A stretch of DNA of 64,000 nucleotides from Flavobacteriaceae bacterium (lineage in GTDB: Bacteria; Bacteroidota; Bacteroidia; Flavobacteriales; Flavobacteriaceae): positions 124,001 to 188,000 of the forward strand of contig NVXD01000004.1 in NCBI GenBank assembly GCA_002746415.1, in the 5' to 3' direction. Positions 277 through 37,407 of the stretch are shown here, piece by piece (position 1 is the stretch's first letter; each line of letters opens with the position of its first letter). The position numbers were made by a program, and so were the translations under genes. A model generated the notes under the pieces. It was given only the letters and a program-made list of their open reading frames with translations. It searched no databases and was not told the DNA's origin.

Positions 277-353
277 AGCCATTATTGCAAAAAGAAAAAA
301 GCTTTTTAGAGTTTATTTAAAAGCCTTTGTTTTACTAGAAAAAGAGATGGTAA

Positions 354-746: not shown

Positions 747-973
747 CAATATTTAATTCTTTTAAGCCGCAATAAAATTACCCAAATAGAAATTGCCACA
801 CCAAGTAGCGTGGCAAAAGCGGTACATATTCTTTTTCCAGTTTCAAAATGATCATCTAACCATTTTCCTCCATAAGCTGCCAAAAAAATAATGGCACCCA
901 TTTCAAAAGCAATGCCCATAAGCATTACAGCATTTTTTAATTTGTTCTTCTTAGGACGCTTTTGCTGGTTCAT
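746..973 (-). CDS. AtpZ/AtpI family protein
   Basis: This 75-residue protein has a basic N-terminus (KRPKKNK) and two membrane helices, with GGKWLDDHF between them. That GxWLDxxF-type pattern is characteristic of AtpZ/AtpI proteins, which accompany F-type ATP synthase genes and are implicated in rotor assembly or in Mg/Ca transport. It overlaps the bactofilin gene upstream by 23 bases and the next gene downstream by a TGATG junction, so the three are probably co-transcribed into atpB. Confidence 0.8.
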   Translation of the reverse strand: MNQQKRPKKNKLKNAVMLMGIAFEMGAIIFLAAYGGKWLDDHFETGKRICTAFATLLGVAISIWVILLRLKRIKY

Positions 974-1382: not shown

Positions 1383-1386
1383 TGTT

Positions 1387-3942: not shown

Positions 3943-4075
3943 AATTATCGATATTCTTGTCTACTCTTAACTTAAAAACAACAAGATTATTATGCAGTTG
4001 ATCGATAAAATGCGTTTATTTTTTCTCTATTAAAGTAATATGCCCAAGATTTTTTATTTAAAAGTGAATTTAGGG

Positions 4076-4771: not shown

Positions 4772-4804
4772 ATATCTTTTTTAAAATCTTAATTTATATA
4801 ATGG

Positions 4805-6277
4805 TTATGCCTTCTCTTTGTACGCCAATAAGGTTTTGTACTTTTCTTTTTTATAGACCTTTTCAATTATTTTAAAGACCTTGTTTTTAAAGACAAAACC
4901 AATAACGCCAGCCAATGCTACAAAAATATATCCAGCTGTTGGATTTATGGTGAAATGTCCAATAGCGTAAACAGCCATTGGCAATAATAATTTGGGAATG
5001 GTCAATAAAAGTGTCTTGGCATTGAACGCTTGCTTATCTCCAAATGCCTTTTTATTGGACGTTAAGTCGATTGGTGTTTTTATATATGCTCCACCCCAGA
5101 GCACAAGGTAGGAATTCACTCCTATGTTATAAATGGCCCCAACCAATATGGCTAAATATGCATCCCAACCAAAGTAAAGGTAAAAACTGGATAGGATGGT
5201 GCTTGCTATGGTAGCAATAACAATCAAGTACCATTTGGAGTTTAAATATTCCTCAGAAGAAATATTCTGACTCATCATTAGTGGGTAATAAGAACTGTCC
5301 CAACTAGGTACGTACTGCCCAAAAGTGAACAGAAATCCTCCTGAAACAAATATTCCTGCAAAAATCTTCCAAACAGGACCATCATAAGCTTCTACGGCCC
5401 CAGTGAAAAACAATAAACCATAGAAAAGAAACATAAAGCTCATAATGACGGTGGTTTTGGAGCGCTTGTTCCGCTTAATCAATTTAATGTCATTCTTTAA
5501 AAATGTGCCCAACTTTCCATATTTGTCCAACCAGGTAAGGTCTTCAGACGTAGCTTCTGTATGTTTCAAGGCCAAACCTCCATCCAAATACATGTTCTTT
5601 TTAAAATAACTGAAAGAGAAAAAATACAATCCTAACAATACCAACCATGGCAAGAGCGCTATCCAAGGAAGGTCATATAATCCATCAAAAAATGGTGCTG
5701 TATACAAAGTGATATCAAAAAATTCATAATATTGACAAATGCCCAAAATAGCCAAAATACTGGCTATGCCATAAAACACTACATCTTTATTGTTCACCAA
5801 TATGTTGATGAAATTGTTACAATAAAACAGGGCAATCATTCCCAAATGCCATCCAATTACACTTACTGGATCATATCCTTTAATCAAAAGCACTATAGAA
5901 AAAGGAATGAAGAAAAAAGCATGTGCCCAATTAAAAAATGAAACGATGGTCTTTCCCAAAGAATAATTTACAACTTGGCTTTTCTTAAAAGGCAGGTATA
6001 AAAGAGGTTTAATATTAGTGATTGGCATTTTCTGCAACATATAGCGCAGGACCAAATCCATAACCAAATAATAAATCATGTATTTATTCACTACTCTAAA
6101 AGGGTCGCCCAAATCAAATTCTTCAATAATAAAAAAAGCACCGAAGCCCAAGGATAAAAATGAAGCAATCATCCAGAGTGCACCAAAAATCATGAATATT
6201 TTAATCCAAATTTCTGTTTTAAAAGAAGAGGATCTAAAAAATGATTTCCATTGAAGGTTGAGGAAGTGTTTAAACAT
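4805..6277 (-). CDS. DUF5687 family membrane protein (ABC exporter permease)
   Basis: 490 residues with about twelve hydrophobic segments arranged in two halves. The N-terminus (FKHFLNLQWKSFFRSSSFK) is typical of DUF5687, a Bacteroidota membrane family regularly encoded next to an ABC-2 type ATPase, as here (the ATPase gene follows 33 bases downstream). It is therefore most likely the permease half of a two-gene exporter. The substrate cannot be inferred. It is divergent from the reductase gene at 6405. Confidence 0.8.
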   Translation of the reverse strand: MFKHFLNLQWKSFFRSSSFKTEIWIKIFMIFGALWMIASFLSLGFGAFFIIEEFDLGDPFRVVNKYMIYYLVMDLVLRYMLQKMPITNIKPLLYLPFKKSQVVNYSLGKTIVSFFNWAHAFFFIPFSIVLLIKGYDPVSVIGWHLGMIALFYCNNFINILVNNKDVVFYGIASILAILGICQYYEFFDITLYTAPFFDGLYDLPWIALLPWLVLLGLYFFSFSYFKKNMYLDGGLALKHTEATSEDLTWLDKYGKLGTFLKNDIKLIKRNKRSKTTVIMSFMFLFYGLLFFTGAVEAYDGPVWKIFAGIFVSGGFLFTFGQYVPSWDSSYYPLMMSQNISSEEYLNSKWYLIVIATIASTILSSFYLYFGWDAYLAILVGAIYNIGVNSYLVLWGGAYIKTPIDLTSNKKAFGDKQAFNAKTLLLTIPKLLLPMAVYAIGHFTINPTAGYIFVALAGVIGFVFKNKVFKIIEKVYKKEKYKTLLAYKEKA

Positions 6278-6380
6278 AATGGTTGGCTATTTTACAATCA
6301 ATTAGTGCCTAAAATACATTTTTTGTTACATAAGGTGTTATTTTTTTTCAAATGTCATTTTATATGGGCATCCCTTTCCG

Positions 6381-6388
6381 TAATTTTG
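6381..6388 (+). promoter_or_regulatory. Bacteroidota -7 box for the reductase gene
   Basis: TAATTTTG matches TAnnTTTG. It ends 16 bases before the ATG at 6405, so the untranslated leader would be about 10 bases. No clear TTG is seen at the -33 distance. Confidence 0.45.
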
Positions 6389-6404
6389 CATTAAAATTGC
6401 AAAC

Positions 6405-7454
6405 ATGGCTAGTTTTTATCCCTTAACCGTACAGCGCGTAAAGTCATTGACTCCAAGTTCTGTGGCGATTACCTTTACAATTCCAAAAGAATTGATTCAA
6501 ATTTTTGCCTTTATTCCTGGGCAATACATTACTATTAAAAAAGAAATTAAGGGAAAAGAACTGCGCAGGGCTTATTCCATAAGTTCTTCTCCAAAAAGCG
6601 ATTCCATTACCATAGGCATCAAAAAAGTGGATAAAGGTGGTTTTTCCAATTTTGCAAATACCAAAATCAATGTTGGTGATGTTTTGGAAGTGATGCCTCC
6701 TGAAGGACGTTTTGTGTATGATCCAGCCCCCATTGTTAAAAACATTGCAGCTTTTGCCGCTGGCAGTGGCATTACACCAATCATTAGTATTGCAAAGGCT
6801 GTTTTAGATGCCAATCCAAAAAACAAATTTGTTTTGGTCTATGGAAACAGGTCTTTTAAGGAGACTATGTTCCACACGGATATAGCAAAACTTCAACTTG
6901 AATATCCTAGTCGGTTTTATGAATATTTTATTTTCAGTCAAGCTCAAGAAGAAAATTCACTTTTTGGTCGTATTGATGCTTCAACTGTAAACTATGTCTT
7001 GAATAACAAACACAAAGACATTTTTTTTGATGACTTTTATCTTTGTGGCCCAGAAGGTATGATTCATTTAGTGACGGATACATTAAAAGACAATAATTAT
7101 TCCGAGGATAAAATTCATTTTGAACTCTTTACCTCAACTGAAATCAAAGATGAGTTTCCTGAAAAATCTAATGGAAAAGCACAATTAACCCTTGTAGTGG
7201 ATGACGAAGAGTTTTCTTTTTCCATGGACAAAAGCACTTTAGTTTTAGATGCTGCTCTAAAAGAAAATATTGATGTTCCTTATTCCTGTCAAGGTGGGGT
7301 TTGTAGTAGTTGCATTGCCAGAGTAATAGAAGGAAAGGCAGAAATGGTAAAAAACCAGATTTTAACGGATAGTGAGATTGAAGAAGGTCTTATTTTAACT
7401 TGCCAGGCACATCCTACAACGCCAACACTAAAGGTGAATTATGATGATGTTTAA
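6405..7454 (+). CDS. PaaE-type ferredoxin/flavodoxin--NAD(P)H reductase with C-terminal 2Fe-2S domain
   Basis: 349 residues in the domain order of the PaaE/HmpX reductases. An FAD-binding barrel comes first, with RAYSISSSP (55-63) as the flavin motif. An NAD(P)-binding domain follows, with GSGITP (120-125) and YLCGPEGM (212-219). A plant-type ferredoxin domain closes the protein, with cluster ligands Cys295, Cys300, Cys303 and Cys333. It would move electrons from NAD(P)H through FAD to its iron-sulfur cluster and on to an oxygenase or desaturase. No phenylacetate-catabolic genes are nearby, so PaaE itself is unlikely; in this family such stand-alone reductases often serve fatty acid desaturases or hydroxylases. 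The partner is unknown. Confidence 0.85.
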   Translation: MASFYPLTVQRVKSLTPSSVAITFTIPKELIQIFAFIPGQYITIKKEIKGKELRRAYSISSSPKSDSITIGIKKVDKGGFSNFANTKINVGDVLEVMPPEGRFVYDPAPIVKNIAAFAAGSGITPIISIAKAVLDANPKNKFVLVYGNRSFKETMFHTDIAKLQLEYPSRFYEYFIFSQAQEENSLFGRIDASTVNYVLNNKHKDIFFDDFYLCGPEGMIHLVTDTLKDNNYSEDKIHFELFTSTEIKDEFPEKSNGKAQLTLVVDDEEFSFSMDKSTLVLDAALKENIDVPYSCQGGVCSSCIARVIEGKAEMVKNQILTDSEIEEGLILTCQAHPTTPTLKVNYDDV

Positions 7455-7571
7455 TAATCCCATTATAGTTTCGTAAATATGGCAGTAGGCTTTATTTTCT
7501 CTTAGGTAATTTTATTTCCAAAAACTATTCACATTCTTTTGTAAAGAATTATTTGTCATTGCGACCAAATT

Positions 7572-7604
7572 TTTGTTCGCGTTTTTGTCATAATTTTATC
7601 TTTG
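7572..7604 (+). promoter_or_regulatory. Bacteroidota promoter of the arsenosugar genes
   Basis: A TTTG at 7572-7575 and TATCTTTG at 7597-7604 are separated by 21 bases, close to the TTTG/TAnnTTTG arrangement recognised by the Bacteroidota primary sigma factor. The gene starts 25 bases downstream at 7629. Confidence 0.6.
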
Positions 7605-7628
7605 ATAAATTCATTAAAATAAATAAAA

Positions 7629-7964
7629 ATGGCAAACTCTTATTACGATCCTGCAGACTTACGAAAATTTGGAAAAATCACAGAATGGAGTGAGGAACTC
7701 GGTGAAAAATTCTTTGATTATTATGGTAAAGTATTTGAAGAAGGTGCGCTAACAGCGCGAGAAAAATCTTTAATTGCTTTGGCAGTTGCTCATGTGATAA
7801 AATGTCCATATTGTATAGATTCATATACCAAAGATGGGCTACAACGTGGAATAACTAAAGAAGAAATGATGGAGGCGGTACATGCTGGCGCTGCAATTGA
7901 AAGCGGTGCAACTTTGGTGCACGGAGTACAAATGATGAACAAGTACAATAAATTATCAATGTAA
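7629..7964 (+). CDS. arsenosugar biosynthesis-associated peroxidase-like (AhpD/CMD) protein
   Basis: A 111-residue carboxymuconolactone decarboxylase/AhpD fold protein. The CxxC pair of the AhpD-type active site is Cys59 and Cys62 (KCPYCIDSYTKDG), preceded by the family's REKSLIALAVAHV helix. This small subfamily is typically encoded directly before the radical SAM protein ArsS, as here. It may act in thiol redox or peroxide handling around arsenic methylation chemistry; the exact reaction is not established. It has its own well-formed promoter upstream and is followed after 89 bases by arsS. Confidence 0.85.
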   Translation: MANSYYDPADLRKFGKITEWSEELGEKFFDYYGKVFEEGALTAREKSLIALAVAHVIKCPYCIDSYTKDGLQRGITKEEMMEAVHAGAAIESGATLVHGVQMMNKYNKLSM

Positions 7965-8005
7965 AATGGTTAACAGTCTTCAATACCAGATGGACAACAC
8001 CAACT

Positions 8006-8047
8006 GAGAACTGAGAACTGAGAACTGAGAACTGAGAACTGAGAACT
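8006..8047 (+). repeat. heptanucleotide tandem repeat, six copies of GAGAACT
   Basis: Six perfect head-to-tail copies of GAGAACT (plus a partial AACT before them) end 6 bases before the arsS start codon. The run lies wholly within the 89-base gap between the two arsenosugar genes. Perfect tandem repeats of this kind are prone to slipped-strand changes in copy number. An in-frame TGA within the array means copy number would alter the 5' untranslated spacing and not the reading frame. Confidence 0.95.
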
Positions 8048-8053
8048 GAACAT

Positions 8054-9109
8054 ATGGCAACAAAATCATTAAAAGCACAACAAAACGAACTTGCCACATC
8101 CAACAAGCAATTGGAAATATTAAATGGAGGTTTATTTGCAAATGGCGAACTACCATACTTTAAAGATAAAATTGCGGAAATAGGTCATTTTCCTTTGCGT
8201 CCGACTAGATTGGAAATTCTACAAATCAATGTGGGCTATATGTGCAACCAAGTTTGTGCCCATTGTCATGTTGATGCTGGTCCCGATAGGAAAGAAATCA
8301 TGACCAAGGAAACCATGATGCAGTGCCTAGAGGTCATTAAAAATACGAAAGCGCATACCTTGGACCTCACTGGTGGGGCGCCAGAAATGAATCCTAATTT
8401 TAGGTGGTTTGTAGAAGAGGCTTCCAAAGCTGGGATAAAAGATTTTATAGTTCGTTCTAACTTAACCATTATTAGAGCCAATAAAAAGTACTACGATCTT
8501 CCGGGTTTTTTTAAAAAACATAATGTGCACGTCATTTCTTCCATGCCACATTATACTAAAGGTAAAACAGATAAACAACGTGGAGATGGTGTTTTTGACA
8601 AATCCATCAAGGCTTTACAAGAACTCAATGCCGTAGGTTATGGCATGCCCAATAGTAATTTAAAGTTGGATTTAGTGTACAATCCATCTGGCGCATATCT
8701 TCCTGGTGACCAAGGAGCAATGGAACGGGATTTTAAAAAAAGATTGAAAGAAGATTTTAATATTCAGTTCCATAATCTATTTGCAATAACCAACCTGCCC
8801 ATAGCGCGCTTTCTAGATTATTTAATTGCTTCTGAAAATTATGAAGATTATATGTATGCCTTAGTGGAGGCTTATAATTCATCCGCAGTTGCCAATGTAA
8901 TGTGTACCAATACCATTTCTGTAAGTTGGGATGGCTGGTTGTATGATTGTGATTTTAATCAGATGTTGGATTTAAAAGTTGCGAGTAAGGTAAAGCATAT
9001 TAAAGATTATAATGAAGATGTTCTTACCGACAGAAACATTATTATTTCACAACACTGCTATGGATGCACAGCTGGTGCAGGAAGCAGTTGCCAAGGATCG
9101 GTTGCCTAA
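8054..9109 (+). CDS. arsS: arsenosugar biosynthesis radical SAM protein ArsS
   Basis: 351 residues. The radical SAM cluster motif CxxxCxxC is Cys64, Cys68, Cys71 (YMCNQVCAHCHVD), followed by a TIM-barrel-type core. The C-terminal DUF3641 region holds further cysteines (VMCTNTISVSWDG, YDCDFNQML, HCYGCTAGAGSSCQG) that probably bind auxiliary clusters. ArsS is proposed to join a 5'-deoxyadenosyl group to methylated arsenic, giving the precursor of arsenosugars. Some orthologues have selenocysteine in the C-terminal motif; here all positions are Cys. The AhpD-like partner is upstream, but no ArsM methyltransferase gene is present in this window. The start codon follows a heptanucleotide repeat. 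Confidence 0.9.
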   Translation: MATKSLKAQQNELATSNKQLEILNGGLFANGELPYFKDKIAEIGHFPLRPTRLEILQINVGYMCNQVCAHCHVDAGPDRKEIMTKETMMQCLEVIKNTKAHTLDLTGGAPEMNPNFRWFVEEASKAGIKDFIVRSNLTIIRANKKYYDLPGFFKKHNVHVISSMPHYTKGKTDKQRGDGVFDKSIKALQELNAVGYGMPNSNLKLDLVYNPSGAYLPGDQGAMERDFKKRLKEDFNIQFHNLFAITNLPIARFLDYLIASENYEDYMYALVEAYNSSAVANVMCTNTISVSWDGWLYDCDFNQMLDLKVASKVKHIKDYNEDVLTDRNIIISQHCYGCTAGAGSSCQGSVA

Positions 9110-11070: not shown

Positions 11071-11659
11071 GAAGAACCGGATTTAACTCCTCATCATTGT
11101 ACATTTTCATTTGTTTATAGACTTTCATATACTTATTACCTGATTCAATATCTTTTAAAAGTTGATCTATAGCTGTAAAAAGGTCCTTTTTTTGTTCTAA
11201 CAACACTTGAAGCTTTTGTTTGCACTTCTCTATATGCTCATCTGTGGCGTCATCTCTGTTCGCCTCTTCTTGCATATGATAAACCTTAAGGGCCAGAATG
11301 GATAATCTATCTAATGCCCACGCTGGACTCTCTGTATTGATTGTTGCGTTAGATAAAACTTGAACTGATTGATGTTTTTCAAGGAAATAACTGTCAATAA
11401 ACTCAACCAAATCTGTTCTATCTTGATTACTGGCGTCTATTTTTCTTTTAAGCTTCAAAGCATCAACCGGATCAATGTTTGGGTCTCTAATGATATCTTC
11501 ATAGTGCCATTGCACTGTATCTATCCAATTTTTTCTATGCAAAAGGTGGTCAATATCATTCTTATCATATGGATTAATAAAAGGTTGATTAACAGTATCT
11601 GCAATATGATATTGTGCTATGCTTTTCCAAAAGATTGAGTATGCAAATTCACTAAACAT
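11057..11659 (-). CDS. DUF4254 domain protein
   Basis: A 200-residue, mainly alpha-helical, charged protein with no signal peptide, matching DUF4254 (WKSIAQYH, NWIDTVQWHYEDIIRDP, ESPAWALDRLSILALKVYHM). The family is widespread in Bacteroidota and is usually encoded next to a GT9 glycosyltransferase, as here, so a role in LPS core assembly is a context-based guess. Its biochemical function is unknown. The 3' end overlaps the GT9 gene by 14 bases. Confidence 0.85.
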   Translation of the reverse strand: MFSEFAYSIFWKSIAQYHIADTVNQPFINPYDKNDIDHLLHRKNWIDTVQWHYEDIIRDPNIDPVDALKLKRKIDASNQDRTDLVEFIDSYFLEKHQSVQVLSNATINTESPAWALDRLSILALKVYHMQEEANRDDATDEHIEKCKQKLQVLLEQKKDLFTAIDQLLKDIESGNKYMKVYKQMKMYNDEELNPVLRGQK

Positions 11660-23051: not shown

Positions 23052-24713
23052 TTATTCAAAAATTCTAATAACATTATTAGATGAACTCTTAATTGTGATA
23101 TTGTTAGTGGTTTTATAAATAGTACTGCCATCATAAAAATCTATAAAATGTGTTGCCCCATTTTTCTTAATAATTTGATATAAACTATTGGTGTTTAATT
23201 CTATATTATCATTCATAACATTTCCCTCTACCATATCTTTTAAGCCAATTTTATTAGTATCTGATATAATTTCAAAATAAAGCATTTTCCCCTCTTCAAT
23301 AGATAGTGAATACTCTTCTAAATAAAGATTCTTATCCCATAAGTGCTCATAAAGGCCAACATCCTTAATAGTAAATTCTATGCCTAGCAATTCTTTATTC
23401 TCAGGAAACGAAATGCCTAAATAGGAATTGTTGTCCTTATAAAAAACTTCGCTCACTTTTTTCCACAATTTATACTTATTATCTCCTAAACTGATAATCG
23501 TATCAAAATTTTCTAATTTTCCAATTCCTCTAAACCTAATATTCTTTATTACTTGTTCATTGCCTTCAAGATATAAATAGAAATTATGCCCTATATAATT
23601 TTTATTCTCAAATCGCATTCTAAAATAGTTTTGCCTTAATTCCCCTTTTTGTCCAATTAGTATTCCATTGGTATCTCTTTTAATAATTTTATAGTTGAGC
23701 ATCTTGTTAAACATGTCTAAACTGGCTTTGTTTAGAGTGGTTTTCTTGGCGATATAGACAACCTTACTTTCTTTTTTTCTTACTGCCAACAACTGCTTGT
23801 TTGTGATGTCATTTATCAAAGAAGTTGTTCTAATCTTTCTTCCCACAACGTTAGGATGATAATGAGAATTAAAAAAATACTTTTTATCATAAGTATATTT
23901 TTTGTCCATACTCAACATTGGAATTTCTGTGGCCTCTGATAAAAATTTCCAAAAGGGTAAAATCTCTTTATTTCTATAATAGCCATCAATAATAACAGGA
24001 GGTGTCAGATAAAATTGAATCCCTTTTTTATCAAAATAACTTTTATATTCTCTTAAGCCATTTATCACGACCGATTTTTTTCGCAATTTCGGTAAGTCAT
24101 GTTCCTTTACCTCTTTTTCATACTTACCAATAATAAATTCTGATTTTAAATTATCTCCATTAAAGGCATCAAGACTATATACAGATTTAGTTCCCTTTTT
24201 CCCTTCTATGGGGTATTCTGAAACATAATATTTAATCGTTTTAAATACTCCATTAACTGTAGATTCAAATAATTTTCGATTCCTGAGTAAAACACGAAGC
24301 TGGGACAATTCATATGTTACTATTTTTGGAAGTTCTATTCCAGTCATTTTATTCCAATATTGATTTTTAAACCCACTATACTCTTTTGCAAGTATTAAAA
24401 CATCTCCTTTATTTAAATCTAATTTTACCTGTTCAAAAATATATTTTAGGGGCAATCCACCATGTAAAGACATATTAACAACTGGAATGCCTAATTCTTT
24501 TTCCATTAAATTAGTGTCTATTCCAAAACTAGCATTGCTACCTCCAATAATAACAAGTTTTGGTCCTTTAATACTTTTAAGTTTTTCTAATTTAGGGACA
24601 ATTGCTGCTACATATTCATTCTTATAATCAGGATTTAGGTATAATGCTGAATACGATAAAAGAAGGATAATACTTCCCAAGATTAGAATTCGAAAAATCA
24701 ATTTCACTATCAT
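23052..24713 (-). CDS. AlgJ/SGNH-like partner of the MBOAT acyltransferase
   Basis: 553 residues: one N-terminal membrane anchor (about 7-26) and a large extracytoplasmic part. VIIGGSNASFGID carries the candidate nucleophile Ser of an SGNH-type fold, and FNSHYHPNVVG, about residue 275, carries the Asn/His block. The C-terminal half (from about 310) is beta-rich and unassigned. In the AlgI-AlgJ and similar systems an MBOAT protein passes acetyl groups across the membrane to such a protein, which transfers them to the polysaccharide. The MBOAT gene is directly upstream, 11 bases away. The C-terminal domain looks unusual for this role. Confidence 0.65.
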   Translation of the reverse strand: MIVKLIFRILILGSIILLLSYSALYLNPDYKNEYVAAIVPKLEKLKSIKGPKLVIIGGSNASFGIDTNLMEKELGIPVVNMSLHGGLPLKYIFEQVKLDLNKGDVLILAKEYSGFKNQYWNKMTGIELPKIVTYELSQLRVLLRNRKLFESTVNGVFKTIKYYVSEYPIEGKKGTKSVYSLDAFNGDNLKSEFIIGKYEKEVKEHDLPKLRKKSVVINGLREYKSYFDKKGIQFYLTPPVIIDGYYRNKEILPFWKFLSEATEIPMLSMDKKYTYDKKYFFNSHYHPNVVGRKIRTTSLINDITNKQLLAVRKKESKVVYIAKKTTLNKASLDMFNKMLNYKIIKRDTNGILIGQKGELRQNYFRMRFENKNYIGHNFYLYLEGNEQVIKNIRFRGIGKLENFDTIISLGDNKYKLWKKVSEVFYKDNNSYLGISFPENKELLGIEFTIKDVGLYEHLWDKNLYLEEYSLSIEEGKMLYFEIISDTNKIGLKDMVEGNVMNDNIELNTNSLYQIIKKNGATHFIDFYDGSTIYKTTNNITIKSSSNNVIRIFE

Positions 24714-24724
24714 ATTATCTTTAT

Positions 24725-26194
24725 TTAAAATTGAAAGTATATAAACGCCGCCTTATCACTATCACCGTAAACACCATAAAACAAAATATAGAGTATAGAC
24801 AAAATATAAAAAGACCATCTTATTATAAGAGGTTGCTTTCTTAATAGATCCATTAAATCATATTTTCTTTCCAACAAATTTGCTGCCAAAAGAACAGCAA
24901 TTGATATAAGGGCAATTTTGAATTCCCTACTTGACAACCCCAAATCATAAACCTTATTATTAAGAAGATTATCAAAGTCAAAAGCAAGCAGGTTTTTTAG
25001 AATATAAGCTGCATCACCTAATGTATTAGCTCTAAAAAATATCCATGCTATACTAACCAAAGTAAATGTTAATCCAACTTTATAAAGCTTATACCCGAAT
25101 GACTGTTTATTAATTTTTAAGAAATCATTTACTTTTTTCATTAATGGATAAGTTGCCAAGTCAATTATTTGATAGGCCCCATGTAAAAAACCCCAAATTA
25201 AAAAATTCCAGCTTGCCCCATGCCATATTCCACTAACGACAAATACAATCATGATGTTTCTATGTTTTTTCCAAATAGAAACACGACTCCCTCCTAAAGG
25301 AAAATACAAATAATCTCTAAACCAAGCTCCCAATGATATATGCCATCTTCTCCAAAATTCTGGAATGGACTTTGAGAAATAAGGCCTGTCAAAATTTTTC
25401 ATTAAATCAAATCCAAGGATTTTTGCTGCGCCAATCGCAATATCCGTATAGGCAGAAAAATCACATAAAATTTGAAACGCAAAAAAGACAGTTGCAACAA
25501 TTAATTCAACACCAGTATACTCTTTCGGGGCATTATACACCGTATTGACCAAGATGGCAAGCCTATCCGCTATAACCAATTTCTTGAAAAACCCCCACAT
25601 CATCAATATGAGACCCTCTTTTATTCTATTATAGTCAAATTTGTTTTCCCTATCAAATTGTGGCAATAAATTGGCAGATTTTTCAATAGGGCCGGCCACC
25701 AATTGAGGGAAAAAAGAAACAAATAATGCATACTTTCCAAAATTTTTAGTTGCCTTTATTTCTCCCCTATACACATCCATAGTATAGCTTAAAGCCTGAA
25801 AAGTGTAAAAAGAAATCCCTACTGGAAGCAGAATATTTAGACTAGACACCTCCCAATTCAAACCCATTTTATTCCATAAAATATTGAGGTTTTCATTTAG
25901 AAAATTAAAATATTTAAACCCAATCAAAATAGCAAGATTAGAAATAAAGCTTAATGCAACATATGTTTTCTTATGGTTGGACCCTTTATTTCTGGCCTTT
26001 TCAATGTATATACCACTGAGGTATGTAATAAGGGTTGATGTTAATATTAATAAAGCATATTTTGGGTTCCAGTTCATATAAAAATAATAGCTCGTAACCA
26101 AAAGCCAAAGCCACCTAATTTTCTTGGGGAAAATATAATACAGAAAGACTACTACTGGGAAAAAGTATAAAAAACTAAATGAGTTAAAAAGCAT
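24725..26194 (-). CDS. MBOAT family O-acyltransferase (AlgI-like)
   Basis: 489 residues with about eleven membrane helices. The membrane-bound O-acyltransferase signature is clear: LPVGISFYTFQALSYTMDVYRG, FPQLVAGPIEK, FWRRWHISLGAWFRDYLYFPLGG and FVVSGIWHGASWNFLIWG with the conserved catalytic His. It would take acyl groups, usually acetyl, from the cytoplasmic donor and pass them to the periplasmic side to O-acylate the glycan. It sits 2 bases after the ligase-like gene and 11 bases before the AlgJ-like partner. Confidence 0.92.
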   Translation of the reverse strand: MLFNSFSFLYFFPVVVFLYYIFPKKIRWLWLLVTSYYFYMNWNPKYALLILTSTLITYLSGIYIEKARNKGSNHKKTYVALSFISNLAILIGFKYFNFLNENLNILWNKMGLNWEVSSLNILLPVGISFYTFQALSYTMDVYRGEIKATKNFGKYALFVSFFPQLVAGPIEKSANLLPQFDRENKFDYNRIKEGLILMMWGFFKKLVIADRLAILVNTVYNAPKEYTGVELIVATVFFAFQILCDFSAYTDIAIGAAKILGFDLMKNFDRPYFSKSIPEFWRRWHISLGAWFRDYLYFPLGGSRVSIWKKHRNIMIVFVVSGIWHGASWNFLIWGFLHGAYQIIDLATYPLMKKVNDFLKINKQSFGYKLYKVGLTFTLVSIAWIFFRANTLGDAAYILKNLLAFDFDNLLNNKVYDLGLSSREFKIALISIAVLLAANLLERKYDLMDLLRKQPLIIRWSFYILSILYILFYGVYGDSDKAAFIYFQF

Positions 26195-29191: not shown

Positions 29192-30562
29192 CTATAACTC
29201 CAATTTACTCCCTAAGTTTTCATTTCGAGCCATTACTAATGATATATGAGTGTTAAATTTAACACTATTACCTCCCGCATCAATTTGTTCTGAGCTATTA
29301 TTAGTTGTATCAGGGTCCTGTATTGAAATAAAAAGATGCTTATAGTCTGGTGTAAATGTAATACCGGTTGGTTCTGACCCAAGAGGAGCTATCCCAAATA
29401 ATTTGACTTTTGGATTATCTTGACTGTGCTCTTTTTCAACAACCCAGATATAATTTTCTCCACCATCCTGCAATACCCATAGGTTTCCATCATCATCAAA
29501 GGCCAAATTATCATTGCCCACTCCCCATGGGACTGTTGTTTTTCCACCCACATGAGTAATTGTATAGTCCATATTTCCCACGTAGGTCTCCATAATTACA
29601 TCAACACCAGTAATTGGGTCAGAATCTTGAAAACGATAAATTTGTCCTTCTCCTTTTACCGCAAAATATATCATTCCATCAGGGCCAATCTCTACATCTT
29701 CTATTCCGTTAAATATAGTGGCTCCTACTGCTGCACTTTGATCAAGGGTAGTGTTTCTCTCTTCAATTGTTGTATTGTTTAATTGAATCCAACTACCAAC
29801 ACCCGCCTTGCTGCCAAAATAAACAAAGAGCTTACCTGAACTTAAATCTCTCTCATTATCCGCCACGAACTTATATAAATAACCAGGATTAGAATCTGCT
29901 CCTTGGTATGCAGTTCGAAGATTAGAGTGAATTGTAATATTTTCATGGGCAAAATTACCTAGAGCCCATCTTTTATCTATGACTTTTTTTGTTACAGGGT
30001 CAATCTCAACAGCCCAGCCAAAATCATTATATCCATCAGCATTATTATCAACTAACTGAATTCTTTCTTCACAAGATATAATAGTGTTCCATGGGGTTAC
30101 AGTACCCGAGCAGTTATTTTTAGTTCCGCCCACCCCTGAAAAATCTATGGCGGATGAGGCAGTAACTTCCCATAACTTTGAGTCAGCATTAAGAATAATA
30201 TCCAAAACTGTAACTCCCCCTGGAGAAGCCTCAGAGCTAATACTTAAATATCCTAATGAACTACTGTCATTAATTGGAACAAAACCTGTAAAATCATTTC
30301 TTGCTGGAAGCATTCCTCCTTCAGTTAAGGCATCACCTGTTTCAATTATTTTTTGAAACCTATGAGATGAAGGGAATATAAAATGACTGCTTTGTGATAC
30401 AGGAACAACCGAAACAAATTCGCCAATGCTTAGAATGGGTGGTCCAGTTAGTATACGTCCCCTAGGTGGTCTGTTTAAGAAATCTCCTCTTGCAAAGTCA
30501 TCATTAACACAAGATGATAATAACACTACTATGACAAGCCAAATATTTTTTAAGAACTTCAT
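29192..30562 (-). CDS. PhoX-like (DUF839) lipoprotein
   Basis: 456 residues. The N-terminal signal has a lipobox (LLSSC, lipid Cys about residue 18). The mature part matches DUF839/PhoX: NCSGTVTPWNTIISCEER (150-167) corresponds to the conserved NCxGGxTPWxTxxxCEE block, followed by FGWAVEIDP, LGNFAHENIT and a beta-propeller-like repeat region with DGNLWVLQDGG. PhoX enzymes are calcium/iron-dependent phosphatases that are normally soluble Tat substrates; here there is a lipoprotein signal without a twin arginine. Its place between polymerase and kinase genes in a capsule locus is unusual and suggests action on a phosphorylated glycan or intermediate. Activity is unproven. Confidence 0.75.
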   Translation of the reverse strand: MKFLKNIWLVIVVLLSSCVNDDFARGDFLNRPPRGRILTGPPILSIGEFVSVVPVSQSSHFIFPSSHRFQKIIETGDALTEGGMLPARNDFTGFVPINDSSSLGYLSISSEASPGGVTVLDIILNADSKLWEVTASSAIDFSGVGGTKNNCSGTVTPWNTIISCEERIQLVDNNADGYNDFGWAVEIDPVTKKVIDKRWALGNFAHENITIHSNLRTAYQGADSNPGYLYKFVADNERDLSSGKLFVYFGSKAGVGSWIQLNNTTIEERNTTLDQSAAVGATIFNGIEDVEIGPDGMIYFAVKGEGQIYRFQDSDPITGVDVIMETYVGNMDYTITHVGGKTTVPWGVGNDNLAFDDDGNLWVLQDGGENYIWVVEKEHSQDNPKVKLFGIAPLGSEPTGITFTPDYKHLFISIQDPDTTNNSSEQIDAGGNSVKFNTHISLVMARNENLGSKLEL

Positions 30563-30619: not shown

Positions 30620-31399
30620 TTATTTTATTATTGTATAAGTGTTGGTATTGACTTTTTCTTTACATTCCTCAATAAGCGCAATAAGGATGTTCTTTTGTTC
30701 TTTTGACAGGCTATTTTGTTTATTCTTTTTTAGTTTCTTAAAAAGAATAAACAAAGAGTAATAATCATCCCATTTCAAGGGTTCTGGCTTATAGTTTACG
30801 CCTAAATCTATTAATTTAAGCATATTGCTATGGCTTTTTAAATTTATCTCTTTTATCTTTCCTTTTTCCGATTTCTCAATCATAAAAGAGAAATCGAAAA
30901 TTTTAATATTTCCAGCTTCAAAAATAAAATTATCTGCCTTTATATCTCTATGAACTAAAGAGGACAATGCAAGCTCATCTACAATCTTAATAAGCGTATG
31001 AAGTTGGTCTATGTTTTCTACCATCCAGTCTTCAGATAACACAGTGCCACCAGATTTTTTTAGCACCAAGGCTTTGTGATTCCCTTTTTTAATGTATTCC
31101 TTATACTCTATGACGTGGTTCTTTAAAAAATCATTTTTAAGGAGTTTTTTATAGGCTCTATTTTCATTTTTTAGTATTCGAGGCAGGTTTGTAAGTTTAA
31201 TAAATACCGGTGCATTCATTTTATCTATTGCTGTGAAAAGGAAAAGATTATGGTGCCATTTATGAATAATAAACGGTTTGGTTTTTTTATAACCATACTC
31301 ATTAAAAAAGTCACGAATGAACTTTCCTTTCCTTAAATAGAATATTCTATTTTTTATAGCTCTTACTATATTACCTATGTAATATTTTAATAATAACAT
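30620..31399 (-). CDS. small eukaryotic-like / LPS kinase family protein
   Basis: A 259-residue protein-kinase-fold enzyme without membrane segment. VFIKL supplies the ATP-binding Lys68, KNENRAY the helix-C Glu79, and HRDIKADNF the catalytic loop with Asp152 and Asn157. IFDFSFM has metal-binding Asp169, with DFS in place of DFG. Size and compact form resemble the Kdo/WaaP and RIO-type sugar kinases of LPS loci more than true protein kinases. It lies 3 bases after the NDPK-like/nucleotidyltransferase-like gene, so the two are translationally linked and may act on the same sugar. The substrate is unknown. Confidence 0.75.
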   Translation of the reverse strand: MLLLKYYIGNIVRAIKNRIFYLRKGKFIRDFFNEYGYKKTKPFIIHKWHHNLFLFTAIDKMNAPVFIKLTNLPRILKNENRAYKKLLKNDFLKNHVIEYKEYIKKGNHKALVLKKSGGTVLSEDWMVENIDQLHTLIKIVDELALSSLVHRDIKADNFIFEAGNIKIFDFSFMIEKSEKGKIKEINLKSHSNMLKLIDLGVNYKPEPLKWDDYYSLFILFKKLKKNKQNSLSKEQKNILIALIEECKEKVNTNTYTIIK

Positions 31400-31402
31400 G
31401 TT

Positions 31403-32557
31403 TTAAATTTTCACCCCCAGTTTTCTAAAAACCTTTTTAATTAGTGTTTTAAATGCTCTTATATTTTCATGTTTAATGCGCTCAGGAGACAAAAGTATAT
31501 CACCAAACTGTTCTACTACCCTGATGTTAAAAAAAACCGTTACATCTCTAGGCTCTACATAATCGTAGCCCTTGGACAGCATAAAACTGTTTAAATCATT
31601 CAATACCATAAAATCTAGGAATGATTTATTGTTATAATTTAAATTAACATTACTCGAAAAATCAATTAGCTTAATTATATAGTCTTCAATTAGTTTCTCT
31701 TTGTGAATAAACGCATGGTACATTAATGAATAAAAATGGTTTTCATTATTGGGAATATATAGGTTTTTATATTGAATCCGTGTATTTAATATTTGCTGTT
31801 CCCATTTATTATCATAATAATTATCCCCAACAAACCTAAAATCAAAGAACACTTTTTGACCATCTATCATTACCAAATGTTGTACCCTTCTTTTCTCTTT
31901 ATAGGTTGGTTTGCCGTTAGAGATATCAGCGAGTAACCGTTTGTTATCTGTTAGCAGATCAATGTCTGGATGAAGGTTTTTTAATTCATCGTCTATATTA
32001 ACAAAATTTCTTAATACAACATAGTTGGACAGTTCATTAAAGGCCTCAAAAATTTCTTCTAAAGAATTCCATCCCTCGGCTCCAATTAAATCCTTGCCGT
32101 ATGCTCTTGTAATGGCGGTTTCTTTGGTATTAACAAGAGTGTTATACTTGGCGCCATACAATAAATACATATTACTTCTTGCTTCTGTAACATTGTCCGA
32201 ACCATGTATTTGGTGTCCCCCTCCGGTCCAATTTCTATAAAGTTGTTTCGTGTCAAACATATTTACATTTACAACCTTTATGCCTTTTGACGTTTCCCTT
32301 AAATCATACTTAGGGTCGCCGTCTCTCACTATAACACATAAGAATGTTCCTGTTCCACAATGCTTTTCTTTAGAGGAATTTTTTGGGAGATTCTCCCCAT
32401 AAAACCTTGATAGGTTCTCTGAAAACTTCCCCTTTGACCATGTAGTATCTATACTTTCAAGGATTTCAAATTTTGTCTCAATGTCTGCAAGTATTTTATC
32501 ACGGTGTTTTAGCCCTTTGCTCCAAATAATAAAAACATGTACTTCCTTTTCTTTCAT
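31403..32557 (-). CDS. NDP-kinase-like domain fused to a nucleotidyltransferase-like domain
   Basis: 384 residues, no signal or membrane segment. Residues about 5-135 follow the order of nucleoside diphosphate kinase: an early strand with conserved Lys (HVFIIWSKG), FEIL, RFYGEN, a GTGTFLCVIV strand, then GGHQIHGSDNVTEA, where HGSD holds the equivalent of the NDPK catalytic His (here His118). Residues about 165-300 look like a nucleotidyltransferase fold: HPDIDLL gives Asp198 and Asp200, and KVFFDFRF gives the third acid Asp239. I do not know a described protein with this architecture. It overlaps the flippase gene by 4 bases and is followed after 3 bases by a kinase gene, so all three are coupled. 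Function is inference only. Confidence 0.6.
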   Translation of the reverse strand: MKEKEVHVFIIWSKGLKHRDKILADIETKFEILESIDTTWSKGKFSENLSRFYGENLPKNSSKEKHCGTGTFLCVIVRDGDPKYDLRETSKGIKVVNVNMFDTKQLYRNWTGGGHQIHGSDNVTEARSNMYLLYGAKYNTLVNTKETAITRAYGKDLIGAEGWNSLEEIFEAFNELSNYVVLRNFVNIDDELKNLHPDIDLLTDNKRLLADISNGKPTYKEKRRVQHLVMIDGQKVFFDFRFVGDNYYDNKWEQQILNTRIQYKNLYIPNNENHFYSLMYHAFIHKEKLIEDYIIKLIDFSSNVNLNYNNKSFLDFMVLNDLNSFMLSKGYDYVEPRDVTVFFNIRVVEQFGDILLSPERIKHENIRAFKTLIKKVFRKLGVKI

Positions 32558-33987
32558 TTTCCGTCTGTTATCTTTAATGCCCTAAGGTCCTTTTCATTTA
32601 TACTTTTTGTTAACCATAACATTACAATAAAAATACTTGTATCCATAAAAATCATGAAAAGAAAATTCAAGTTTTCAAGAAAATTTAATTTATGTATATA
32701 TGACAATACTCCTCCAGTAACCAAAATAACAATTAAAGTGTAAATGTTTTGTTTGCGGTAGCCCACAAAATTGTGTTTAACTTTTAGAACAGCTATTTGA
32801 ATGATATTAGAACACAACAATGCTATTAATATAGAAATTGAAGCGCCTATGTTTCCATAATATTTAACGCCTAGAAACAATAGAATAGCTCCAATGACGA
32901 AAGAGATTGTTCTTATATATAATTGACTTTTACTGTCTCCAAGCGCCAATAAATTTTGCCCTGTAAAGCCTAGCGACACATTGATCCATTGACCTAGAGC
33001 AAGTATTTTTAACACCAAAGCGCCTTCCGAAAATTCATTGGAATACAACAATTTTAGAATGTCTTCAGTATAAAATAGAATAGCTCCAAAAAAAATAGAC
33101 GCCATTATCATGGTCCATTTTGATGAAAAACTACTGAGAAGTATTGCTTTATTCTGTTTTCCACTCTTCAAAAAATTACTCATAATGGGTAGATACAGAA
33201 AGACCAATATGGTTAATATCAAAGGCAGTAAATTGCTAATATTAAATACTGCATAATACAGGCCCAGTTCATTATCAGAAACAAAAAAATTTAAAATGAA
33301 TTTATCCAAATTAGCACTTAAAACTATTAAAATAGAAACGCCATATAAAGGCCAAGTGTATTTAATGAACTTTTTAAAGTCTTTCGCCGTCAGGTCTTTT
33401 TTATTGAAAGTGGTCAAATACTTTTTTGATCCTAAAACATTCAAAACAAAAACTGAAAAAACATACAGCAAATAAATATAAGATACTTGCTTTAATTCAA
33501 AAGTATTTTCAAATTGAAAAAATACAACTAAGAACAAAAGGTATAGCGTAAACCCAAGAAAATCACTTATAAGAACTTTATTTTTTGGTTTTTCCAACCC
33601 GCTATATATGCTATTGTAAACAGTATTAATGCCAAAAAAGAATGTAGCTAATAAAAAGGGTATGTCAATATTAAAAAAAGAATTGAAACTAAAAATAATA
33701 ACTATTCCTATTGCTGTTGCAATTGATATTAGAAAAAGAACTATTGAAAGCACTTTTTTTTTATTGACCAGTGATTTTTGAATAGCTATCTCCCTAATTA
33801 CAGATGAATTAAAGCCTAAAGTGCCAAAAGTGCTCAACAACAAAACTGTCGTTATTCCGTACTTATATTGCCCAAAACTATCGACACCTAGTTGTAACGC
33901 TAAATATTTATCTATTAGCAGGGACAATATAATTTTAAATATAGTGCCTATTGCTATTAATAAACTTCCCTTTACAGTTTTGTTCAC
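32554..33987 (-). CDS. polysaccharide flippase (Wzx, MATE/MVF superfamily)
   Basis: 477 residues with about fourteen membrane helices. The N-terminal VKGSLLIAIGTIFKIILSLLIDKYLALQLGVDSFGQYKYG and later LYYAVFNISNLLPLILTILVFLYLPIMS regions are typical of the oligosaccharide flippase/PST family. It moves undecaprenyl-linked repeat units across the inner membrane. The start is a GTG at 33987. It is separated by 56 bases from rmlD and overlaps the next gene by 4 bases. Confidence 0.87.
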   Translation of the reverse strand: MNKTVKGSLLIAIGTIFKIILSLLIDKYLALQLGVDSFGQYKYGITTVLLLSTFGTLGFNSSVIREIAIQKSLVNKKKVLSIVLFLISIATAIGIVIIFSFNSFFNIDIPFLLATFFFGINTVYNSIYSGLEKPKNKVLISDFLGFTLYLLFLVVFFQFENTFELKQVSYIYLLYVFSVFVLNVLGSKKYLTTFNKKDLTAKDFKKFIKYTWPLYGVSILIVLSANLDKFILNFFVSDNELGLYYAVFNISNLLPLILTILVFLYLPIMSNFLKSGKQNKAILLSSFSSKWTMIMASIFFGAILFYTEDILKLLYSNEFSEGALVLKILALGQWINVSLGFTGQNLLALGDSKSQLYIRTISFVIGAILLFLGVKYYGNIGASISILIALLCSNIIQIAVLKVKHNFVGYRKQNIYTLIVILVTGGVLSYIHKLNFLENLNFLFMIFMDTSIFIVMLWLTKSINEKDLRALKITDGK

Positions 33988-34043: not shown

Positions 34044-34898
34044 TTATTTAATTGAAGACAGGCATTTGGAAAGGCTATCTCTCCAATATGGGATTTCAAT
34101 ATTAAAATTTTTCTTGATTTTTGATTTGTCCATAACACTAAAAACTGGTCTTTCTGCAGGTGTTGGATAGACATCAGATTTTATAGGAAATAATTTGACA
34201 TTTGTTTTACTTTCATCAAAAATGGCTTTAGCAAAATCATACCAACTTGCAACTCCTTCATTACTATAATGATACGTGCCATAAACTTGTATTTCTTCAG
34301 TAATGATTTTTATTATTGTTTGAGCAAGATCCCCTGCATATGTTGGCGTGCCTATCTGGTCGCAAACCACATTTAATTCTTCTTTTTCCTTACCAAGTCT
34401 CAACATTGTCTTCAAAAAATTGTGCGCATGTTCCGAATAAAGCCATGAAGTTCTAACAATAAAATACTTATCAGTAGCATCAGCTACCGCTAATTCTCCC
34501 ATTAATTTTGTTTCTCCATAAACCCCTAATGGTTTTGCTGCATCATTTTCTGTATATAATTGGGGCTGTTTTCCATCAAACACAAAATCAGTAGATATCT
34601 GAATAATAACCGCATTATGCTTTTTACATGCCTCAGCTAAAAATTTAGCACCATCAACATTTACCCTTCCTGCAATAGTAGCGTCTGTTTCTGCCTTATC
34701 AACAGCTGTATAGGCTGCACAATTAACACAATACGATATATTGGTGTTTTCAAAATAAGCTTGTACAGCTTCTTCATTTGTAATATCTAATTCATCATAA
34801 TCTATATAAATAAAATTATGTTCCTTTATATTTAAAGACAGGTCTTTAATGCATGTGGCCAATTGCCCTTTCCCCCCTGTTATTAAGACATTTTTCAT
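34044..34898 (-). CDS. rfbD: dTDP-4-dehydrorhamnose reductase
   Basis: A 284-residue SDR: VLITGGKGQLATCI as the NAD(P) motif, VNCAAYTAVDKAE, STDFVFDG, and YGETKLMGE with the catalytic Tyr/Lys. It reduces dTDP-4-dehydro-L-rhamnose to dTDP-L-rhamnose, the last step of the pathway. It starts inside the end of rfbC (4-base ATGA overlap), so expression is coupled. Confidence 0.93.
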   Translation of the reverse strand: MKNVLITGGKGQLATCIKDLSLNIKEHNFIYIDYDELDITNEEAVQAYFENTNISYCVNCAAYTAVDKAETDATIAGRVNVDGAKFLAEACKKHNAVIIQISTDFVFDGKQPQLYTENDAAKPLGVYGETKLMGELAVADATDKYFIVRTSWLYSEHAHNFLKTMLRLGKEKEELNVVCDQIGTPTYAGDLAQTIIKIITEEIQVYGTYHYSNEGVASWYDFAKAIFDESKTNVKLFPIKSDVYPTPAERPVFSVMDKSKIKKNFNIEIPYWRDSLSKCLSSIK

Positions 34899-35440
34899 AC
34901 TCCAGTCAAATTAAATTCGGGTAAAATTGCATCTTTTTCTGACACCAAAAGTTCATTAACTGGTAATTTCCAGTCTATATTTAAGGTTGCATCATTATAA
35001 ATGACACCGCCCTCAGAAGCCTTATTATAATAATTATCACATTTATAAAAAAATTCCGCAGTTTCAGTCAAAACCACAAAACCATGTCCAAAGCCTCTAG
35101 GAACAAAAAGTTGTTGTTTGTTCTCTTCACTCAATTCTACTGCAACATGTTCACCATAGGTGCTGGAGTCCTTTCTTAAATCCACGGCTACGTCCAGTAC
35201 CGCTCCTTTTAACACCCTTACTAATTTGGCCTGTGCATGTTCTCCCGTCTGATAATGCAATCCTCGTAGAACCCCTTTTTGAGAAAAAGATTGGTTGTCC
35301 TGTACAAAGGAAACTTCTTGGCCAATAGCTTCATTAAAACGCTGGGCGTTAAAACTTTCAAAAAAATACCCTCGATTATCCATAAAGACACTCGGCTCAA
35401 TAATAAAACATCCTTTTAGTTTTGTTTCTTTAACAATCAT
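34895..35440 (-). CDS. rfbC: dTDP-4-dehydrorhamnose 3,5-epimerase
   Basis: A 181-residue cupin-fold epimerase: [29 protein letters not shown] with the catalytic His, [21 protein letters not shown] with the catalytic Asp partner, and [11 protein letters not shown]. It epimerises C3 and C5 of dTDP-4-dehydro-6-deoxyglucose. It overlaps rfbD and rfbA by 4 bases at each end. Confidence 0.94.
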
Positions 35441-36306
35441 TGACCCTTTTTTAATATTCCCAATAAATTTTTGCCATAACCACTTTTCATTAATGGTTCT
35501 GCAAGTTTTTTAAATTGCTCCTTACTAATAAAGCCCATTTCATATGCAGCAGCCTCTATAGCCCCAATTTTAAGCCCCTGTCTTTCCTCTATAACCTCTA
35601 CGAATTGTGAAGCTTGCATTAAAGATTGAAAAGTCCCTGTATCTAGCCAAGCTGTTCCTCTATCCAAAATGCTGACACTTAATTTTTGTCTTTCAAGATA
35701 TACCCTGTTCACATCAGTAATCTCTAGTTCTCCCCGAGAACTTGGCGGAATATTTTTTGCGATTTGCACAACTTCATTGTCATAAAAATATATTCCTGGT
35801 ACTGCATAATTGGATTTGGGTTCTAACGGTTTTTCCTCGATGCTTACAGCTTTACCTTCTTCATTAAATTCAACTACACCATACCGTTCCGGGTCATGTA
35901 CCCTATAGGCATATATAATACTTCCGTCTGGATCATTGTTGGCTTGTAGTAATTTAGCCAGGCCAGATCCATAAAAAATGTTATCTCCCAAAATAAGAGC
36001 TACCTTATCTTTTCCTATAAACTCTTCTCCAATAATAAATGCTTCCGCCAATCCGTTTGGTTCCTCTTGTACTGCATATTCAAAGCTGCAACCATATTTT
36101 TCGCCCGATCCCAGTAAATCTTTAAAAAGAGGCAAATCCTTTGGTGTTGAAATAATTAAAATTTCTTTTATTCCTGCATATATCAACGTTGACAGCGGAT
36201 AATAAATCATTGGCTTATCATAAACAGGCATCAATTGCTTGCTTACCGATAGCGTTAAAGGATGTAATCGTGTTCCAGATCCTCCAGCTAAAATTATTCC
36301 TTTCAT
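35437..36306 (-). CDS. rfbA: glucose-1-phosphate thymidylyltransferase
   Basis: 289 residues: [16 protein letters not shown] is the nucleotidyltransferase signature, [20 protein letters not shown] the sugar-binding start, [11 protein letters not shown] the metal-binding Asp motif, and [20 protein letters not shown] the C-terminal block. It makes dTDP-glucose from dTTP and glucose-1-phosphate. Overlapping genes downstream indicate one Rml operon. Confidence 0.95.
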
Positions 36307-36348
36307 TAATTATAAATGTTGGTTCAAATATTACTATACATAGTCAAT

Positions 36349-37407
36349 TTATGTATACATTTTTTTGTAGTACTCTTGATAATTTCCAGAAGTAACATTG
36401 GATAACCACTCTTCATTCTGCAAATACCAATCTATTGTTTTTGCCAATCCTTCTTCAAAAGTAACAGAAGGTTTCCAACCTAGATTTTTATTTATTTTTG
36501 AAGCATCAATTGCATATCTCAAATCGTGTCCTGGCCTGTCTTTTACGTAGGTAATGAGTTTTTCTGAAGAGCCATTGACTCTATTTAGTTTAACATCCAT
36601 TAGCTTGCATAAAAGTTTTACTAAATCAATGTTTTTCCATTCATTAAAACCACCTATATTATATGTTTCCGTATTTTTTCCTTCATGAAAAACTAGATCA
36701 ATAGCAACGGCATGATCTTCAACGAATAGCCAATCCCGAGTATAATTCCCATCTCCGTAGACTGGTAAAGATTTTTCTTGAATTATGTTATTAATAAATA
36801 AAGGTATTAATTTTTCAGGAAAATGGTTAGGCCCATAGTTGTTAGAGCAATTGCTAATAACATAGGGCAGTCCATAGGTTTCCCCGTAGGCTCTAACAAA
36901 GTGATCCGAGCTTGCTTTCGAAGCTGAATATGGGGAGTTTGGATCATAGGGCGTTTCTTCTGTAAATAAGCCTGTTTTTCCCAAAGAACCATACACCTCA
37001 TCTGTACTTACGTGATAAAACCGTTTTTCCGAAAAATCGTTTTTCCAGTAATTTTTGGCGGCATTTAGGAGATTTACAGTTCCAATAATATTGGTCTTGA
37101 CAAATGCCAAAGGATCAGTTATTGATCTGTCAACATGTGACTCTGCTGCTAGATGTATTACTCCATCAAATTCGTACTTCTCAAAAAGATTATTAATAAA
37201 TGATTCGTCCAGTATATTTCCTTTAATAAAGGTATAATTTGGATAATCTTGAATGCTCTTTAAGTTTTCTAAATTTCCTGCATAAGTAAGTGCATCTAGG
37301 TTAAATATGTTATAATTTGGATATTTTGTTACTAGCCCCATAACAACATGAGATCCTATAAAACCGGCTCCTCCAGTAACTAAAATATTTAAAGATTTTT
37401 TATTCAT
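36349..37407 (-). CDS. rfbB: dTDP-glucose 4,6-dehydratase
   Basis: A 352-residue extended SDR: LVTGGAGFIGSHVV, HLAAESHVDRSI, HVSTDEVYG, YSASKASSDHFVRAYGETYGLP with Tyr/Lys, and NNYGPNHFPEKLIPLFI. These are the standard RmlB motifs, including the Asp-Glu dehydration pair in STDEVYG. It converts dTDP-glucose to dTDP-4-dehydro-6-deoxyglucose. It follows the Wzz-like gene by 2 bases. Confidence 0.95.
   Translation of the reverse strand: MNKKSLNILVTGGAGFIGSHVVMGLVTKYPNYNIFNLDALTYAGNLENLKSIQDYPNYTFIKGNILDESFINNLFEKYEFDGVIHLAAESHVDRSITDPLAFVKTNIIGTVNLLNAAKNYWKNDFSEKRFYHVSTDEVYGSLGKTGLFTEETPYDPNSPYSASKASSDHFVRAYGETYGLPYVISNCSNNYGPNHFPEKLIPLFINNIIQEKSLPVYGDGNYTRDWLFVEDHAVAIDLVFHEGKNTETYNIGGFNEWKNIDLVKLLCKLMDVKLNRVNGSSEKLITYVKDRPGHDLRYAIDASKINKNLGWKPSVTFEEGLAKTIDWYLQNEEWLSNVTSGNYQEYYKKMYT

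Follow-up and report, generated by a model that had tools for sequence, protein, structure and literature searches.

The window (the whole 64,000-nucleotide stretch of Flavobacteriaceae DNA that was analysed) carries on its minus strand a gene for a 384-amino-acid protein (P0001) followed by a gene for a 259-amino-acid protein-kinase-like enzyme (P0002). Both open reading frames were found where an earlier sequence-only reading had placed them, and so were the motifs to which it had drawn attention, H118-GSDN, D198-I-D200 and F-D239-F-R in P0001 and HRD and DFS in the kinase 3 bp further on. The features of the locus are as follows.

34044..37407, minus strand: rmlD-, rmlC-, rmlA- and rmlB-like genes, upstream (translations, named by inspection)
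32554..33987, minus strand: Wzx-type flippase, first in an apparently translationally coupled trio (Polysacc_synt, 5.7e-22)
31403..32557, minus strand: 384-aa NDPK-like plus nucleotidyltransferase-like protein, P0001 (open reading frame)
32123..32557, minus strand: NDPK-like domain (NDPKL), P0001 residues 1-145 (predicted structure, PDB matches, hhalign)
32204-32206, minus strand: His118 codon of NDPKL
31523..32110, minus strand: nucleotidyltransferase-like domain (NTL), P0001 residues ~150-345 (predicted structure, PDB matches, Asp triad)
31958-31966, minus strand: D198xD200 of NTL
31841-31843, minus strand: D239 of NTL
30620..31399, minus strand: 259-aa protein-kinase-like enzyme, P0002 (Pkinase 7.1e-5; K68, E79, HRD150-152, N157, D169)

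Read along the minus strand, the order is rmlB-rmlA-rmlC-rmlD-like genes, the Wzx-type flippase gene, P0001, P0002 and a PhoX-like gene, past which lie more polymerase, acyltransferase and glycosyltransferase genes (names of neighbours were partly assigned by inspection alone). The stop codon of the flippase gene and the start codon of P0001 overlap in ATGA, and 3 bp separate the P0001 stop from the P0002 start, an arrangement that suggests translational coupling of all three. Both genes are kept in Maribacter sp. ACAM166 (locus L002; 70% identical for P0001 and 59% for P0002) in the same order as the window, rml-wzx-NDPKL/NTL-kinase, and the pairing is therefore more than chance. Elsewhere in the window, a DltB-like MBOAT acyltransferase gene (TIGR04091 8.2e-44, below the cut-off) is followed by one for a 553-aa protein without a family (together 23052-26194, minus strand); the latter is possibly a DltD-like partner of the MBOAT protein, the two O-acylating the same glycan.

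Domain folds and catalytic residues

P0001 is covered by no Pfam or NCBIfam family, and NDPKL itself has none in either collection; PF00334 was not matched, there being no Pfam NDK match at E values up to 1. Sequence searches of the PDB with P0001 and with alignments A1 and A9 returned nothing useful, and the fold assignments therefore rest on structure comparison. In an AlphaFold2 model of P0001 built from a four-row alignment, NDPKL (residues 1-145) had a pLDDT of 74 to 96, the rest of that model being of low confidence. With Foldseek (best E 4e-4, probability 1.00), the 50 best-ranked PDB matches of this domain were all NDKs or chains with an NDK domain, as were all 50 PDB rows listed by a second structure aligner (best Z 12.5 over 121 residues at 2.8 Å). 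In its predicted structure, P0001 residues 1-145 have the NDPK ferredoxin-like fold across the whole domain, as the sequence-only reading had anticipated, with a predicted beta-hairpin in place of the NDK helix that precedes the Kpn loop. Profile comparison agreed: in hhalign, two divergent NDPKL sets aligned colinearly with 20 NDKs (E 0.0004-0.003, the better being 3.9e-4), and their His, which is His118 in P0001, fell on the NDK catalytic His. The scores were 25.5 and 25.1, compared with maxima of 17.0 and 23.7 among 60 column-shuffled versions; this match is modest and was used only together with the fold match.

H118 was invariant, as were D198, D200 and D239, in the 7-row alignment A3. 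The catalytic-position His was retained in every NDPKL copy, and the HxS/TD motif (H118-G-S-D in P0001) in nearly all. Copies fell into type A, to which P0001 belongs and all rows of which have the His, and type B, in which NTL comes first. Besides the His, the NDK active site comprises K12, Y52, R88, T94, R105 and N115 (NDK numbering). By inspection, T-N, R, N-x-x-H and S are retained in type B copies, aligned with NDK T94/N95, R105, N115, H118 and S120, and the Lys12 position is Arg; type A copies have a plausible equivalent of R105 and that of H118, and an invariant Trp in place of Lys12. In P0001, the N115 position is His, and R108 and Y53 are plausible equivalents of NDK active-site residues. 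NDPKL thus shares with NDK its fold and the catalytic-position His in an HxSD motif and differs from it in its fusion to a nucleotidyltransferase, in the missing Pfam match and at Lys12. Because the Lys12 position is Trp in the window's branch, ordinary NDPK activity is not assured, and NDPK-type NTP regeneration may have been lost or altered in type A proteins. The same genome encodes a separate ordinary NDK (L031), so NTP supply alone need not demand NDPKL.

NTL was modelled from a 23-row alignment (pLDDT 84, pTM 0.84), the fold spanning about residues 162-345. Loci that came from the genome searches did not enter structure prediction. Its leading PDB matches were pol-beta-type nucleotidyltransferases, namely MenT1 (Z 9.1) and ANT(2'')-Ia (Z 8.5), followed by MenT3/TglT, TM1012 and LnuA (MenT1 and MenT3/TglT spanning Z 7.4-9.1). 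The model thereby supports a pol-beta-type nucleotidyltransferase fold and bears out the earlier assignment of the second domain. The DxD...D Asp triad of these enzymes (D198, D200, D239) was invariant in 24 sequences, as were R183, N184, R241, D245, Y247, Y248, H281 and K286. The usual hG[GS] motif before DxD was absent from these sequences, which have V-L-R-N-[FW] there. P0001 scored 14.4 bits against PF14907 (NTP_transf_5) and did not reach the gathering cut-off of 31.2 bits, and hhalign of NTL with six genomic PF14907 matches, one of which was a wrong ORF, gave a weak 1.7e-4. Compared with pol-beta-type nucleotidyltransferases (MenT1/MenT3, ANT(2'')-Ia, PF14907), NTL is therefore alike in fold, triad and weak PF14907 profile match and different in LRN[FW] for hG[GS], in its score below the PF14907 cut-off and in its glycan-locus setting. 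Characterised pol-beta-type enzymes mostly nucleotidylate hydroxyls, and a member of the group that forms NDP-sugars is not known to us.

P0002 matched Pkinase at 7.1e-5, below the cut-off, and an 11-row kinase profile reached PDB protein kinases at 2e-13. It contains the set K68, E79, H150-R-D152...N157 and D169-F-S, in which K68 (VAIK Lys), E79 (alphaC Glu), D152 (HRD) and D169 (DFG) were invariant in alignment A10, the basis of that profile. By its sequence, P0002 is a member of the protein-kinase-like superfamily with predicted catalytic residues complete.

Recurrence and genomic settings

Relatives were surveyed in Bacteroidota genomes and, beyond that phylum, in IMG/VR contigs only. One scan of genome contigs gave a single relative, and genome searches gave matches in 6/397 and 6/395 genomes, low counts that mark the module as rare; in the plasmid and phage records, neither P0001 nor its homologues had a relative. 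Alignment A6 retained full-length P0001 and P0003, and the search from it was not specific to NDPKL. Sixteen distinct loci with NDPKL and NTL were counted (the window, L002, L003, L004, L005/L041, L006/L042, L009/L043, L010/L044, L012/L045, L013, L014, L037/L046, L056, L057, L060/L061 and L096), a figure that is the product of biased searches and not a census. A kinase was present in 15 of the 16, fused in 8 and close by in 7, so that the co-occurrence which the sequence-only reading had proposed to survey does extend to other genomes, often within one polypeptide with NDPKL-NTL. The kinases were of the protein-kinase fold in 10 loci, CTP-dependent-riboflavin-kinase-like in 2, P-loop in 2 and APH-like in 1. 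Kinase types and domain orders (PK, protein-kinase-like; GT, glycosyltransferase; RFK, riboflavin-kinase-like) were distributed as follows.

Protein-kinase-like domain, fused: L003, L004, L009, L014, L057, L060, L096
Protein-kinase-like gene, next door: window, L002, L056
CTP-dependent RFKase-like (PF01982): L005, adjacent (4.9e-5); L013, fused (1.2e-8)
P-loop AAA_18/dNK-like kinase, nearby: L042, L045
APH-like gene, nearby: L044, in which the NTL frame is broken
Order NDPKL-NTL-PK: L003, L004, L014
Order NTL-NDPKL-PK: L009, L096
Order PK-NDPKL-NTL: L057, L060
Order GT-NDPKL-NTL-RFK: L013

The L014 kinase is divergent (HRE for HRD) and was found by the profile, of which L014 is itself a row, at 3e-19. 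The exception among the 16 was L046, which has no kinase and an NTL without DxD; its stand-alone NDPKL-NTL protein (7099-8406, plus strand) is degenerate, HCGET replacing HxSDN. Chance pairing of NDPKL, NTL and kinase was rejected on the grounds of repeated fusions in several orders; the repeated rearrangement into four permuted orders, together with the replacement of one kinase type by another, is strong evidence for a shared function of the parts. Among the surveyed loci, NDPKL was never found without NTL (the NTL frame of L044 being broken), as would be expected if NDPKL serves NTL. NTL-PK two-domain proteins without NDPKL (320-345 aa) were common in IMG/VR contigs, and in cellular genomes NTL-PK also occurred inside the very large glycosyltransferase proteins of L047 (2785 aa) and L097 (2284 aa). 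Kinase plus NTL thus form the core pair, and NDPKL is an optional addition, observed only where NTL is present.

The unannotated module recurs in capsule/O-antigen loci, in flagellar glycosylation settings (NDPKL with NTL in one flagellar locus) and in phage genomes. Wzx adjoins module genes in the window, L002, L005 and L043, and in L003 the ABC exporter Wzt lies one base from the fusion gene. Glycosyltransferases are fused in L013, L047, L096, L097 and, by inspection, L014, and are adjacent elsewhere. L013 is flanked by head and connector genes and L060 adjoins terminase, which supports a phage origin of these two NDPKL loci.

Three arrangements deserve separate description. In the IMG/VR contigs L062-L084, a recurrent cassette (at about position 5000 in most) comprises a WbqC-family gene (PF08889 1.3e-21), the NTL-kinase protein and a glycosyltransferase, the NTL-kinase gene typically lying between the other two. 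The 2785-aa protein of L047 (3268-11625, minus strand) joins NTL, kinase, TPR and multiple glycosyltransferase domains, and flagellin (568-1395, minus strand) is encoded two genes away, all on one strand. In L096, a 1916-aa chain (2588-8338, plus strand) runs TPR, GT41 (O-GlcNAc-transferase-like), FkbM methyltransferase, NTL, NDPKL and kinase and adjoins fliD (304-1677, minus strand); it is possibly an entire flagellar glycan-decoration pathway.

Proposed function and alternatives

From the folds, the conserved catalytic residues and the recurrent linkage in glycan loci we infer substrates, an order of steps and a product. Our leading interpretation, held at somewhat less than even confidence, is that the two genes form a cytoplasmic three-enzyme module making a phosphate-linked, nucleotide-activated or nucleotide-dependent decoration of a surface glycan. 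The kinase would phosphorylate a hydroxyl on a small molecule, whether a sugar, a polyol or a compound of amino-acid type. NTL, using an NTP, would then either activate that phosphate, giving a pyrophosphate-linked NDP-X, or transfer phospho-X to the glycan, and one of the locus's own glycosyltransferases or phosphotransferases would take the product ahead of export by Wzx. Through phospho-His118, NDPKL would regenerate NTP or phosphorylate a phosphorylated intermediate. A small-molecule substrate is favoured because three unrelated types of small-molecule kinase replace the protein-kinase fold, and the product is placed in glycan assembly because glycosyltransferases and flippases are fused or adjacent. 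The sequence-only reading, which suggested that the proteins may phosphorylate a sugar or polyol and activate or transfer it, is confirmed in what it observed and partly supported in this functional interpretation. Its remark that it knew of no described protein with this architecture agrees with our literature search, which found no description of NDPKL-NTL-kinase among the sources within its reach, a range that took in few subscription papers. The module yields testable predictions (phosphohistidine, an NTP-dependent product and glycan phosphorus), and it suggests how phosphate-decorated glycans might be recognised by rule from sequence. NDPKL would be, to our knowledge, the first NDPK-fold domain in surface-glycan assembly.

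A narrower conjecture, which we regard as unlikely, is that the phosphohistidine domain NDPKL relays or adds phosphate not to free NDPs but to a phosphorylated sugar, polyol or glycan supplied by the kinase, with NTL completing the linkage. If true, bacteria and their phages would share a three-enzyme pathway, not described before, by which glycans are decorated through phosphate or pyrophosphate links.

Parts of this logic are known. WbdD, a kinase-methyltransferase that phosphorylates O-antigen, is likewise a protein-kinase-like enzyme acting on a surface polysaccharide and fused with a second enzyme, but that enzyme is a methyltransferase, and WbdD is without a nucleotidyltransferase or NDPK domain. 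In Type A and b-type flagellin glycans, substituents are joined via phosphodiester, and a nucleotidyltransferase step has been proposed (PMC10714395, PMC11833859). The enzymes (C. difficile CD0240-0244, P. aeruginosa PA1088-1091) resemble the module in combining a glycosyltransferase with a proposed activating nucleotidyltransferase toward a phosphodiester-linked surface-glycan substituent. Compared by description, they differ in that CD0242 is GDP-mannose pyrophosphorylase-like, CD0241 phosphoserine phosphatase-like and CD0244 TagF-like, and no NDPK or pol-beta nucleotidyltransferase is described among them; the GDP-mannose-pyrophosphorylase-like enzyme of the Type A pathway was not matched by the NTL model, which resembles pol-beta-type enzymes. 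For pseudomycoidin, PsmK phosphorylates Ser and PsmN, annotated as a nucleotidyltransferase, is reported to put hexose on the phosphate (PMC9266682). Here too a kinase and a nucleotidyltransferase-annotated enzyme jointly build a phosphate-linked hexose; the differences are that PsmK is one of the lasso-peptide kinases, which have been described as homologues of HPr kinase, that the substrate is a peptide and that no NDPK-like domain is described. Closest in logic are PsmK/PsmN and the enzymes of Type A flagellin glycans, which are built from different domains.

The main rival to small-molecule activation is a PsmK/PsmN-like modification at the level of the glycan, which we think rather unlikely. 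The kinase would phosphorylate the lipid-linked glycan itself, as WbdD does with O-antigen, NTL would attach a group to that phosphate and NDPKL would extend or supply phosphate, possibly yielding a cap or a repeat-unit decoration before export. The pseudomycoidin precedent of phosphorylation followed by hexose addition (PMC9266682) fits this order of events, as does the position of the genes beside Wzx (window, L002, L005, L043) or Wzt (L003), and flagellin near L047 and FliD near L096 suggest glycoprotein glycans as possible targets; against it, the RFKase-like, dNK-like P-loop or APH-like kinase substitutes in 5 loci point to a small molecule.

That NDPKL is non-catalytic, serving in oligomerisation or regulatory nucleotide binding so that only kinase and nucleotidyltransferase chemistry counts, is a less probable reading still. 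The many viral NTL-PK proteins that do without NDPKL, the Trp at the K12 position of type A copies and the weak sequence match to NDK are all consistent with it; against it stand the catalytic-position His kept in every copy and HxS/TD in nearly all, and, in type B, the residues aligned with NDK T94/N95, R105, N115, H118 and S120.

MenT toxins (MenT1, MenT3/TglT) are regulated by phosphorylation (PMC11375011) and are among the best structural matches of NTL (Z 7.4-9.1), but a regulatory or toxin-antitoxin-like pair, in which a nucleotidyltransferase toxin or protein/tRNA modifier is restrained through kinase phosphorylation as in MenT3/MenA3, is very improbable and was set aside with the defence reading: MenA antitoxins are without kinase motifs (PMC11375011) while P0002 has the complete set, the two partners share a single chain, inside glycan loci and joined to glycosyltransferases or next to them, PADLOC matches cover the kinase domain only with none for P0001, and NDPKL and the kinase swaps would be left unexplained.

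Beside the kinase gene, 57 bp 3' of it, the PhoX-like gene of the window (29192-30562, minus strand; Pfam PhoX 2.6e-39) encodes a predicted lipoprotein; the matching stretch of the Maribacter locus (near 11198-11572) appears broken. This secreted phosphatase-like protein may be connected with the adjoining putative phosphate-decoration module.
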